Below, piece by piece: positions 23,617 to 26,927 of a stretch of 64,000 nucleotides of DNA. The stretch lies in NCBI RefSeq assembly GCF_018613235.1, contig NZ_JAGGQP010000029.1:186001-250000 (forward strand). Reading direction: 5' to 3'. The position numbers and the translations under genes are program-made. The DNA is from Bacillus sp. ISL-41. GTDB taxonomy: Bacteria; Bacillota; Bacilli; Bacillales; Cytobacillaceae. Numbering within the stretch: the first letter of the stretch is position 1; each line of letters begins with the position of its first letter. The notes beneath the pieces were generated by a model. That model searched no databases. It saw nothing but the letters and a program-made list of their open reading frames with translations, and had not been told where the DNA came from.

Positions 23617-23645
23617 TTTACATTTAATCTATTTCACATTATAAT
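23617..23645 (+). promoter_or_regulatory. Sigma-A promoter of the homing endonuclease
   Basis: TTTACA (23617-23622), exactly 17 bases, TATAAT (23640-23645). It is back to back with the flaG sigma-D promoter. Confidence 0.85.
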
Positions 23646-23652
23646 AGATACA

Positions 23653-23664
23653 GAACAAACGTTC
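23653..23664 (+). promoter_or_regulatory. LexA/DinR (SOS) box in front of the endonuclease
   Basis: GAACAAACGTTC, followed by C, fits the B. subtilis LexA consensus CGAACRNRYGTTYC at 13 of 14 positions (only the first C is A). It sits 8-19 bases after the -10 element, over the expected transcription start, where LexA would block RNA polymerase. Confidence 0.75.
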
Positions 23665-23683
23665 CTGTTTAGGAGGTTTTTAT

Positions 23684-24544
23684 ATGAAGGAGCTTTTAGG
23701 TAAACTAACTTTGACTCAAGTGAATATTCTAATAGGGAGTATTATGGCAGATGGAGAAATCACAAAGATATACCCAGGAAGCAGGAGGAAAAATAATAGC
23801 TATCGAGAACACTTTAGTATTAACCAATTGGCCTATCGAGAATGGAAAGTTTCCATGTTGCCACAGCTGTTTTACTTACGCAGTTCTAAAGATTATTTAG
23901 TTTCAAAATCAAACAGCCTCTTCACAAAATTATATCCTCATTTTTATAATAACGAGGGAAGAAAGATACTCCCCGATGAATTACTGCCTCTATGTACTTT
24001 ACCAGAATTTATTGCTGTCCTTTATTTAGACGATGGATCACTTTGTATATCAAGGAGGATTAATGTCCGCAAGAAACATATCTATTTAACTCCCCACATA
24101 TGCTTATACTTACAAAGCTACCTCAAAGATGATTTAGAAATTCTTCAGAAACACATTGATGAAAATTTTAATATCAGCTTCTCATTAAACAAAAGAAAAG
24201 ATGGATACGGGTACATATTAAAATTGACGAAGGTCAATGATAGCATGAGGTTTTTAAAATTAATTAAAAGTGCGGTTGAAGAATGTAAATTGGAGTACAA
24301 AACTGATTGGAAGAAAAGATTTGAGATTGAAAAAGAAAAGCTTCAATTGCAGTATCCTGATTTTAAAATCCTTTCTTCAGATTCGGAAAGATGGAAGAAC
24401 TACACTGAACAAGAAGTAAAGACAATTATTACTCTTAAAATGGCTGATCAAACCGATAAAGCTATTGCACAACAATTAAATCGTTCCTACTGGTCAATTG
24501 TTTATAAAATCCGAGAATTAAGAAAGGATGGCCGTTTAGAATAA
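23684..24544 (+). CDS. Free-standing LAGLIDADG homing endonuclease
   Basis: 286 residues, ATG after AGGAGG. Two LAGLIDADG-type helices are visible: LIGSIMADGEI (about 14-26) and FIAVLYLDDGSL (about 112-124), each with the acidic catalytic residue, so it is a single-chain enzyme of the LAGLIDADG_2 type. The last 50 residues (WKNYTEQEVKTIITL ... RSYWSIVYKIREL) look like a Myb/SANT or HTH DNA-binding domain. It converges on hag with 18 bases between the stop codons. The two hag introns hold no ORF, so this enzyme is a candidate for cutting intronless flagellin alleles in trans. AT-rich compared with the flagellar genes around it. Confidence 0.85.
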   Translation: MKELLGKLTLTQVNILIGSIMADGEITKIYPGSRRKNNSYREHFSINQLAYREWKVSMLPQLFYLRSSKDYLVSKSNSLFTKLYPHFYNNEGRKILPDELLPLCTLPEFIAVLYLDDGSLCISRRINVRKKHIYLTPHICLYLQSYLKDDLEILQKHIDENFNISFSLNKRKDGYGYILKLTKVNDSMRFLKLIKSAVEECKLEYKTDWKKRFEIEKEKLQLQYPDFKILSSDSERWKNYTEQEVKTIITLKMADQTDKAIAQQLNRSYWSIVYKIRELRKDGRLE

Positions 24545-24562
24545 CGGCCATCCCTTTTTAAA
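24526..24562. terminator. Shared terminator between the endonuclease and hag
   Basis: GGATGGCCGTT / AACGGCCATCC, perfect 11-bp stem with a 6-base loop, followed by CTTTTTAA on the plus strand and by CTTTCTT on the minus strand. The endonuclease stop codon lies in it. Confidence 0.85.
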
Positions 24563-24607
24563 TTAACGAAGAAGTTGTAGAACTCCTTGTGGTTGTTGGT
24601 TCGCTTG
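24563..24607 (-). other. hag: Candidate third exon: second flagellin C-terminus
   Basis: Fifteen codons, CAA to TAA, encoding QANQQPQGVLQLLR, the near-universal flagellin end. They are preceded by a G (the expected last base of a group I intron) in TCGCAAAG, matching the 3' end TCGCACG of intron 1. The codons differ at many third positions from the equivalent end in exon 2, so it is not a recent duplicate. Whether it is translated depends on splicing of intron 2. Confidence 0.6.
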
Positions 24608-24963
24608 CTTTGCGACTGTACCTTTCAGTTACAGAATAGACTATATCTTCACCCTTGTCTTCAAGGGGCTGGGCACTTCGAACAGCTACTATTGCTGCCC
24701 TACGAGATTCATAGCCATAGCTTTTGCCTTAGACCGTGTTCTCTAGTCGTTGAACCTTCTCCAGAGTTTCCTCACAGGAGCTTGGCTGCTGATTATCCAT
24801 TGTTTTATCTTCATCATTTTCATACCTTCACGCTGACCGTTTCCAGTTGCGTTGTGGTTGATAAAGCTTTAGGAAGTTCCAGCAATTCACCCAGTTATAC
24901 TCTAGCTCGTTACCAAGCTAGACGCCCTTCAAATCTTTACCTTAAAAGTTGTAAAACTCCCTG
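24608..24963 (-). ncRNA. Group I intron 2 in hag (ORF-less)
   Basis: Conserved core elements shared with intron 1: AATCAGCAGCCAAGC (around 24780-24794), GTTCAACGACTAG (24755-24743) and GAAGATATAGTC (24650-24639), the Q, R and S type motifs, followed by a P9-like hairpin and TCGCAAAG. An internal guide GGGCGT (24927-24922) pairs over six bases with AUGCCU ending at 24964, with the diagnostic U-G pair at the cut. This puts the 5' splice site after ...NQMP, so the first bases of the intron still encode the normal end QGVLQLLR plus stop. A second possible 5' site, after GCT at 24982, would join to give MLAQANQQPQGVLQLLR but has no guide pairing I can find. Confidence 0.8.
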
Positions 24964-25050
24964 AGGCATTTGGTTTGATTGAGCCAACATTGCTTGTGCT
25001 GCTTGAGAAAGAATAGAATTCTTAGTTTGGTTCATCATTTCTTTCGCCAT
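24937..25050 (-). CDS. hag: Flagellin exon 2 (conserved C-terminal helix)
   Basis: From ATG 25050 it encodes MAKEMMNQTKNSILSQAAQA, then MLAQSNQMPQGVLQLLR and TAA: the canonical C-terminal D0 helix of flagellin, complete with a stop codon. The frame is open upstream into intron 1, but that part is ribozyme sequence. Joined to exon 1 (…RDVD) it yields a 542-residue flagellin if intron 2 is retained or is a 3' appendix. Confidence 0.85.
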   Translation of the reverse strand: MAKEMMNQTKNSILSQAAQAMLAQSNQMPQGVLQLLR

Positions 25051-25412
25051 CGTGCGAACATTTGCTTTCACAAATGACCAGACTATATCTTCACCCTCTA
25101 GCAATCTAGTAGGGGTCGGGCACTTCGGATTCACAATGCTGATGACCATTGTTTCACCTACGGATTTCATCATCATAGCTTTCGCCTTAGATGGTTTATC
25201 CTAGTCGTTGAACCTTCTCCACTCTTTCGAGACAGGAGCTTGGCTGCTGATTGCCCATATCTTCCTTCTTTTCAACCCATCACGTTTGCCGTTTCCAGCT
25301 CCGTTGTGGGGAAGAAAGCTCTAAGGGGTTTCCAGCAATTCACCCGATAATATTCACTAGCCGTTACCAGCCAGGACGACTGTGCTTGTCACTGTTAAGC
25401 AGCTAAAGCATA
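25051..25412 (-). ncRNA. Group I intron 1 in hag (ORF-less, 362 nt)
   Basis: Interrupts hag between RDVD and MAKEM. Core motifs: AATCAGCAGCCAAGC (25252-25238), GTTCAACGACTAG (25213-25201) and GAAGATATAGTC (25092-25081); a P9-like hairpin (ATTTG / CAAAT) and terminal TCGCACG. The exon end GUUGAU pairs with the guide GUCGUC (25380-25375) at five of six positions with U-G at the cut, and UGCUU/AAGCA extends the helix beyond an internal loop. Intron 2 has the same layout. The layout resembles subgroup IA2 introns such as phage td; subgroup is inferred. Group I introns have been reported before in flagellin genes of thermophilic Bacillus/Geobacillus. Confidence 0.88.
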
Positions 25413-26927
25413 ATCAACGTCACGGATACGAGATTCCGCAGCAGTTAGGTTTTCTGACGATGTATTCAAGTTGTTGATAGTGTGCTCTAAACGATTCTGA
25501 ACAGCACCAAGGTTTGCACGTTCAGTAGAGACCGATTTAATTGCATCGTCTAAGGACTTAATTGCATTGTCTGCACCTTCACGAGTAGCGATATCAATAT
25601 CTGCAACATTTAAACCACTTGTTGTCATGTCATTAATTTGCAGATTAATATTTTGCCCCTTATTTGCACCGATATGGAAGTCTAATCCGCCAGTATTTGA
25701 AGTTCCTGCGCCTGAAAGACCTAAAGCATCAGCAGCATCACTCTTAGCAAATTCAATAGTAACTGTATCTGCTTTATCGGATTCAATAACTAGCGAACCA
25801 TCCTTAACCTTAACATCAACATTCCCAAAATCAGTACCAGTTAATTCTTCATATTTATCTAATGCTGCTTGAATATCTGTTTTTAGATCCTCAGATAAAC
25901 TTCCAGTTCCAGACATCTCAGCATCAGTAAGATATGACGCAGCTTCAACAGTTTCTAGATCGACAGCGATTTTATTTCCATTTACACTCATAGTTAATTT
26001 GTCAGTCAATTCTAGATTAGTAATTGCAGTTGCAGCTTCAGCAGAAAGTTTTCCATCTGAACCTTCTGTCCAAGTTGTATCATCAGCTAACTTTGTAATC
26101 AGGTCGGTTGAAGCTGGTGCACTAGTATTACTAGCATCGTCTAGTATTTTGAATTCAATTTGTGATGAACTGCCTGTTGTTCCACTAGTAATAACGAAAT
26201 CCATACTCGTCTCAGATTGGACATCTGAAATTTCAAATTTTGGTTTTGTTATTTGTGCATTTGGATTACTAGTATTATAAGCATCAATCGCAGAATTCAG
26301 GCTAGTTTCTAGATTTTGGAAAAACTCGAAGTGGTCATTACCTGTAACTCCACTTAGGTTAAATGTTTGACCATCTACCTTAACTTGAACTTCTTGCGAA
26401 ATACTAGCTGTGATTGCATTTGAAGTTGGATCAAAATCATCAATTTTAATGGAAGCAGCAGTGGCAGTACCTAATTTGCTTCCAACTCCACCAACTTGAC
26501 TACCAGATAAATCACCATTTAATAATTTCTTTGTATTAAATTCAGTATTATTACCAATTCTATCAATTTCACTCTTAAGCTGCTTTACTTCGTCTTGCAG
26601 CGCTTTACGATCATCATTAGTAGCAGTATCGTTTGATGCTTGCACAGATAGTTCACGCATACGTTGAAGGATATCATGTGTTTCATTTAGAGCTCCTTCA
26701 GCTGTTTGAATTAATGAAATTGCATCTTGCGCATTGCTACCAGCTTGCTCTAAACCACGTACCTGAGCACGCATTTTTTCAGAGATTGCTAGACCTGCAG
26801 CGTCATCTCCAGCACGATTAATACGAAGTCCAGAAGAAAGTTTCTCCATTGATTTTGATTGTGCACCTGAAGCACTATTCAACTGACGATAAGTGTTAAG
26901 TGCCGCAATATTATGATTAATTCTCAT
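25413..26927 (-). CDS. hag: Flagellin Hag, exon 1 (505 codons)
   Basis: Encodes the conserved N-terminal D0/D1 helices ([17 protein letters not shown] ... [19 protein letters not shown]), a long variable surface region (about 170-410) and the start of the C-terminal D1/D0 region up to ESRIRDVD. Read without splicing it ends five codons later (YALAA, stop), lacking the helix needed for polymerisation, so intron 1 must be removed for a functional filament. Total spliced length is about 542-550 residues against 304 in B. subtilis. Regulated by a sigma-D promoter at 27033 and, in the leader, by a CsrA hairpin. FliW, CsrA and FliS, the other control partners, are all encoded nearby. Confidence 0.93.

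Follow-up and report, generated by a model that had tools for sequence, protein, structure and literature searches.

The flagellin gene hag in the 64-kb stretch of DNA analysed here (the window) carries two group I introns and converges with a free-standing gene of the LAGLIDADG homing endonuclease family, HEG-B, whose expected transcription start is covered by a predicted LexA box. Comparison with relatives revealed that the association is intron-specific: HEG-B goes with intron 2, and a second, distant endonuclease family, HEG-A, goes with intron 1. Judged from these comparisons, HEG-B and intron 2 probably form a two-part mobile element that would spread by collaborative (trans) homing under the control of LexA.

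HEG-B (23684-24544, plus strand) encodes 286 amino acids and is preceded by the ribosome binding site AGGAGG (23671-23676, plus strand). The protein matched the Pfam family LAGLIDADG_2 (PF03161) over residues 14-183 with 66.6 bits at a cut-off of 25 (E 3.5e-18), the match spanning the two-motif domain, and the acidic residue before glycine was invariant in both D23-G24 and D117-G118 among 10/10 aligned open-frame HEG-B. By family, HEG-B is a LAGLIDADG homing endonuclease, putative as a DNA-cleaving enzyme. Its helix-turn-helix-like C-terminal tail is conserved, with weak matches to helix-turn-helix domains. A sequence search of the PDB with the single protein matched no endonuclease, and a search with the HEG-B alignment gave a weak match to I-SceI (E 0.026). 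The phage and plasmid collections searched gave no match, and the contig search for relatives yielded one, Bacillus sp. J33; nine further open-frame HEG-B of the window's family share 46-61% identity with that of the window. The stop codons of HEG-B (24542-24544, plus strand) and hag (24563-24565, minus strand) are 18 nt apart, and both these coordinates and the Pfam match confirmed the claim of an earlier note on this DNA that a LAGLIDADG gene converges on hag. Likewise, endonuclease genes beside hags of the family always occupy the strand opposite hag. Between the two genes, a bidirectional terminator-like hairpin (24526-24553) was indicated by terminator prediction on both strands and by folding. 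One of its arms is formed by the last HEG-B codons and it resembles a hag terminator, so that a terminator for hag may travel with the mobile block.

Upstream of HEG-B, a predicted sigma-A type promoter, TTTACA-17-TATAAT (23617-23645, plus strand), agrees with the consensus at 11 of 12 positions. The predicted LexA (Cheo) box GAACAAACGTTC (23653-23664) starts 7 nt past the -10 hexamer and matches the Firmicutes LexA consensus GAACn4GTTC as given in PMC2248561. The consensus promoter and LexA-type box that the earlier note had placed at the start of the gene are thus borne out as predictions. Taken by itself, the window offers no evidence beyond chance for the box: one perfect GAACN4GTTC is to be expected in 64 kb, at least one occurring in 52 of 100 shuffles, and promoter-like sites in the region are not enriched (2 found, 4.1 expected). 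The box is therefore convincing only because of where it lies and because relatives conserve it, with the position kept and a -10-like hexamer immediately upstream.

A box was called if at least 7 of the 8 fixed positions in GAACn4GTTC matched, the scan covering 80 nt upstream of the start in the window's family and, for HEG-A outside the family, a wider net from 100 nt upstream of the furthest in-frame start to the first aligned residue. By this measure, the box is found at the start of 32 of 34 evaluable HEG-B, comprising 13/15 in the window's family, where 0.2 were expected from dinucleotide shuffling, and 19/19 evaluable genes outside it. Both genes without a box (G018, G110) are open frames. 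Hag-linked HEG-A genes feature the box in 33 of 38 cases, namely 14/14 in the family (again 0.2 expected from dinucleotide shuffling) and 19/24 outside, and miss it in G303, G223, G289, G228 and G275. These counts leave out the HEG-B of G568 and G491 (5' end lost or decayed) and the HEG-A of G434 (5' end lost), as well as G204, which has no hag on its contig and a perfect box inside the assumed start. Relatives without hag in the locus (G086, G137, G221, G416, G035) showed the box in 0/5 cases, G024, also lacking it, having been dropped from these unlinked controls as a match to a C-terminal fragment only. Among control ORFs of the same regions, 11/295 had a box, six of them being HEG-A and the others L114, L124, L135, L175 and L195. 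Hence, conservation across relatives backs the predicted control of the endonuclease by DNA damage (SOS) suggested in the earlier note. The genome to which the window belongs shows no enrichment of the strict motif (7 sites compared with 14+14 in the reversed control). Four of the seven sites have identified contexts, namely HEG-B, a Y-family polymerase, sbcD and a YolD gene, and recA is preceded by CGAATAAATGTTCG; the boxes upstream of sbcD and recA are consistent with the further suggestion that recombination enzymes would be under the same control. A subgroup of HEG-B (L222, L224 and L225 in G355, G563 and G224) carries an N-terminal extension of about 65 residues, helix-turn-helix-like by eye, with intron 2 still adjacent and perfect boxes at the new start. 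Besides, the unrelated-looking ORF of L195 (G039, minus strand, about position 1937) has the 7/8 LexA-like box AAACATACGTTC upstream and lies downstream of a hag carrying both introns.

On the minus strand, hag consists of exon 1 with 505 codons (25413-26927), intron 1 with 362 nt (25051-25412; RF00028, 93.9 bits), exon 2 with 23 codons (24982-25050), intron 2 with 374 nt (24608-24981; RF00028, 79.2 bits) and exon 3 with the 14 codons QANQQPQGVLQLLR and the stop (24563-24607). Comparison set the boundaries of intron 2 at GCT|CAATCA ... TCGCAAAG|CAAGCG, and excision of both introns results in the canonical C-terminus RDVD-MAKEMM...AMLA-QANQQPQGVLQLLR. For the window's family, 145 hag genes of 120 genomes were classified, made up of hags from earlier searches and 100 regions from the hag matches listed; among these matches, at least 165 of 193 family genomes had a hag, about 45 being left unclassified, as was a hag-like row of G162 (minus strand). 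Exon 1 ends in GAT in 42/42 hags with intron 1 vs. 46/103 without, and exon 2 ends in GCT in 37/37 hags with intron 2 vs. 64/108 without. The guide sequences are GTCGTC in intron 1 (42/42) and GGGCGTC in intron 2 (35/37), so that GAU pairs with GUC and GCU with GGC. In both introns, a terminal G lies eight bases beyond the last hairpin; G is the last base of 41/42 introns 1 and 36/37 introns 2. Of the two exceptions, G125 is truncated by the contig end and the other, a row of intron 1, is probably G160a (gap of 355 nt). The core match, an exon U paired to a guide G and the terminal G characterize both as group I introns. A start of intron 2 inside the LLR codons was ruled out in favor of splicing after GCT, based on 18 intron-2 hags, the 8 nt beyond the terminal hairpin and the difference in guide sequence between the introns (GUC in intron 1, GGC in intron 2). 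With 362 and 374 nt, the introns are too short to hold an endonuclease gene of such kind. The statement that they have no ORF was correct to this extent; it left unmentioned that intron 2 holds a 14-codon continuation of hag with a stop. Intron 1 opens with YALAA-stop (25395-25412) in 40/42 cases, with close variants in two, and unspliced hag is thus truncated there, unlike at intron 2. Outside the window, contig C24 of the same genome has another match to a group I intron, split into two pieces (183352-183864).

Searches for HEG genes covered all 193 family genomes; LAGLIDADG_2 was found in 30 of them, always as HEG-A or HEG-B except in G086, G137 and G035. HEG-B is situated beside 15 of 145 family hags, and all 15 contain intron 2 vs. 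22 of the other 130 (15/0 vs. 22/108, Fisher p 1e-10, related rows making p overstate the independence). The corresponding comparison with intron 1 was not significant (7/8 vs. 35/95, p 0.13, likewise from related rows). The HEG-B set outside the family served as a test set that had no part in forming the idea: a search of 397 genomes drawn from the order matched HEG-B in 24, and intron 2 was present at 20 of the 21 loci outside the family, as judged by exon-match spacing and core motif rather than Rfam. Two of the 20 are remnants, G568 without the exact core motif and G552 (L226) with a hybrid that begins as intron 1 and, exon 2 being missing, ends as intron 2 ahead of exon 3. In all, HEG-B adjoins intron 2 in 35/36 genomes (two by remnants), and the sole HEG-B without it, in G508, lies in pieces beside an intronless hag. 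The intron, in turn, persists without the endonuclease gene, which is not found alongside 22 of 37 intron-2 hags of the family, owing either to loss after fixation or to transfer of the intron alone. Independent occurrence of gene and introns, named in the earlier note as speaking against collaborative homing, was accordingly observed in one direction only, intron 2 being often alone and HEG-B once in 36. Intronless relatives, to be checked for the endonuclease according to the earlier note, lack it in the family (HEG-B at 0/108 intron-2-less hags), with G508 as the exception outside.

HEG-A, about 25% identical to HEG-B, was found because it adjoined hags carrying intron 1 only. It occurs within 3 kb of 13 family hags, of which 11 have intron 1 (p 2e-5) and two intron 2 (p 0.5), these rows also being related; in G032, a HEG-A fragment lies about 5 kb from hag. 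Outside the family, HEG-A was detected in 28 genomes (29/377 searched), 25 of which have hag in the locus. Judged by exon-match spacing and core motif rather than Rfam, 20 of these 25 loci contain intron 1, among them G440 and G275 by core position alone; it is absent from three and unclear in two. HEG-A adjoins hags without intron 1 in G023, G114b, G515, G292 and G376. In two loci, L008 (421-1434) and L012 (422-1435), the HEG-A frames run antisense past the hag stop over the flagellin C-terminal codons and end in ELPVAAGSPALT. The notion of one endonuclease serving both introns was rejected, as HEG-B has no significant link to intron 1. Thus, the plural "introns" of the earlier note is to be corrected to intron 2; collaborative homing by a separate gene seems to apply to this intron, and intron 1 has its own HEG-A. 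Next to 33 intron-bearing hags that lack both HEG-A and HEG-B, inspection by eye of opposite-strand ORFs of at least 90 aa revealed no other endonuclease.

The 5' end of intron 2 (24937-24981, minus strand) is an in-frame duplicate of the last 14 flagellin codons and the stop, QSNQMPQGVLQLLR, which continues exon 2, and unspliced mRNA therefore still codes for full-length flagellin. This spare copy has exactly the same length and is open in 37/37 classified intron-2 hags of the window's family. It is recoded in 36 of them (S at residue 2), 35 of which have in addition M, L, I or, in one case, T at residue 5, and exon 3 equals QANQQPQGVLQLLR in 36/36 complete rows, G125 being excluded as cut at the contig end. 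With a pooled pN/pS of 0.08, the copy was shown to be under purifying selection. The recoding falls where the presumed cut site lies. The one unrecoded copy (G114b, L180) is identical to exon 3 and HEG-B is absent there; intron 2 of this gene measures 629 nt compared with the usual length of about 371 nt. A readable exon 2 followed by intron 2 is present at 19 HEG-B loci outside the family, which leaves out G508 (no intron) and G552 (no exon 2). The 14-codon copy is kept in 18 of them, with S at residue 2 in 14 and A in four (QANSAPQ in G481 and G513, QANSQPQ in G568, QANQAPQ in G394, whose exon 3 was not read). The copy is lost in one HEG-B locus (G224) and in one of eight HEG-A loci compared (G532), and is thus not essential to intron 2. 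A duplicate of the C-terminus of a host gene is also brought by the endonuclease insert of Allomyces atp6, a coding insert without ribozyme. The replacement C-terminus keeps the host protein whole in both cases; unlike in Allomyces, the copy described here forms the 5' end of a group I intron.

Third-position diversity was compared between carriers and non-carriers of intron 2 (35 vs. 89 genomes) and of intron 1 (38 vs. 85 genomes). In the 11 codons before site 2 (exon 2 codons 13-23), diversity amounts to 0.07 with intron 2 vs. 0.39 without, and in exon 3 to 0.19 vs. 0.47. Farther away, the values of intron-2 carriers are also somewhat lower (exon 2 codons 1-12, 0.24 vs. 0.40; last ten codons of exon 1, 0.36 vs. 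0.45). In intron-1 carriers, diversity at site 1 is 0.22 vs. 0.48 before the site (last ten codons of exon 1) and 0.21 vs. 0.42 after it, with a weaker dip at site 2 (0.27 vs. 0.37; exon 3, 0.32 vs. 0.45). Homogenization of the exons thus peaks at the occupied site, as predicted by homing; a differing taxon mix between the sets may explain the general lowering of diversity in carriers. In a HEG-B tree of 22 rows made by a quick method, the family as one clade was rejected (p-AU 0.0014), with labels still clustering.

According to the proposed mechanism, HEG-B would cut intronless hag at the insertion site of intron 2, TTGGCT|CAAGCGAACC (TTGGCT|CAAGCGAACCAACAACC). Repair off the donor would copy intron 2 with flanking exon, and long tracts would add the HEG-B gene located 18 nt on. 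Repression by LexA would confine production of the enzyme to the SOS response, in which recombinational repair genes would be derepressed too. If translation outran splicing, the first 45 nt of intron 2 would still provide full-length flagellin by re-encoding its C-terminus, which would render the intron nearly harmless, and the recoding would ensure that the junction of exon 2 and copy is no longer a cut site. HEG-A and intron 1 would represent a second pair with the same working, without a spare copy. The cleavage site, the binding of LexA, the homing event and the immunity by recoding are what we infer from the comparisons above. Taken further, and with somewhat more in favor than against, a gene-drive-like chromosomal system may be widespread in Bacillus relatives: on DNA damage, two LAGLIDADG enzymes of distant relationship would be derepressed and would each carry an ORF-less intron of their own to a fixed flagellin site, and the recoded spare end of intron 2 would make the insertion silent, spliced or not, and immune to its driver. 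Timed by the SOS response, cleavage would be tied to the capacity for repair, perhaps also to the uptake of foreign DNA.

Several other readings of the same data were considered. HEG-B might home by itself into the hag-flaG interval (intronless homing) with the intron hitch-hiking, since the gene is close to hag, both could move as a single block and co-inheritance alone would produce the association. Nevertheless, anything from 25 to 1030 nt separates the hag stop from the closest aligned residue of HEG-B among 15 loci, so that no fixed insertion site of the endonuclease is evident, homogenization peaks at the intron site, where the spare copy is also recoded, and intron 2 without HEG-B is common whereas the reverse was found once in 36. 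Self-homing is therefore rather improbable. Certain LAGLIDADG proteins act as maturases, and the tight pairing with a single intron would also suit a trans-acting splicing factor for intron 2 instead of a mobility enzyme. However, the gene is not beside the majority of intron-2 hags (22/37), SOS control would be ill-suited to the constant splicing of flagellin, and splicing is less needed in view of the spare C-terminus. Moreover, HEG-B is decayed by internal stops, fragmentation or truncation in 5/15 cases in the window's family and 9/21 outside, as expected from a homing cycle. A maturase role hence appears very unlikely.

A weightier objection concerns the recoding, which could serve solely against deletion between two 45-nt direct repeats rather than as an escape from the endonuclease. 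Identical repeats would recombine, and the difference between copy and exon 3 is in good part synonymous. Still, amino-acid changes in different genera fall repeatedly on a small set of positions: residue 2 turns from A to S, residue 5 becomes M, L, I or T, or residue 4 becomes S. In addition, S at residue 2 occurs in only 2/108 intron-2-less hags of the family, both being paralogues whose genomes contain intron 2 as well (G021, G023); outside the family, the intron-2-less hag of G515 also has S at this residue. Protection from deletion as the only cause is thus possible and rather doubtful. Finally, the conserved box could be the site of another repressor or a feature of the start site, with the gene outside the SOS regulon, as the box is missing from seven hag-linked genes whose 5' end is readable. 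This is very unlikely, as the box corresponds to the Firmicutes LexA consensus given in PMC2248561, repair genes of the same genome are preceded by the same motif, and two endonuclease families with about 25% identity have it in common.

Collaborative (trans) homing has been described in cyanophages for a psbA intron and a free-standing endonuclease (Zeng et al., 2009; Bonocora and Shub, 2009; as reviewed in PMC3984707). As in the phages, the system presented here combines an ORF-less group I intron with a separate endonuclease gene and apparently one shared site. In contrast to the phage systems as outlined in this review, it resides in the flagellin gene of a bacterial chromosome, features a LAGLIDADG enzyme of presumed cutting activity with a LexA box, and includes two separate intron-enzyme pairs per gene as well as an intron with a spare C-terminus. 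Flagellin group I introns of thermophilic Bacillus and Geobacillus were reported previously (Hayakawa and Ishizuka, 2009, 2012, cited in PMC3984707). In Geobacillus, the LAGLIDADG genes edn1 and edn2 of the flaA2-flaG interval were linked to possible island loss (PMC5109656). Judged by this description, these genes beside flagellin are likely of the same kinds as HEG-A and HEG-B; the main text of that article, unlike the present account, contains the word "intron" nowhere and "LexA" once, in a reference.

In a literature search by titles and abstract openings, no previous account of a homing endonuclease under SOS control came up, and among the matches listed no title on duplicated exons was to the point. 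If the proposed mechanism is correct, collaborative homing would extend to bacterial chromosomes, beyond the two phage systems named in PMC3984707, and HEG-B would be, as far as the searched literature shows, the first homing endonuclease described within the SOS response. The question of whether selfish endonucleases time their cuts by the DNA-damage regulation of the host thereby becomes testable. Likewise, a spare exon would offer an intron a simple way to occupy a strongly expressed gene without much burden. In the comparison of family and order genomes, the combination of endonuclease, intron and box recurs across many Bacillus-like bacteria.
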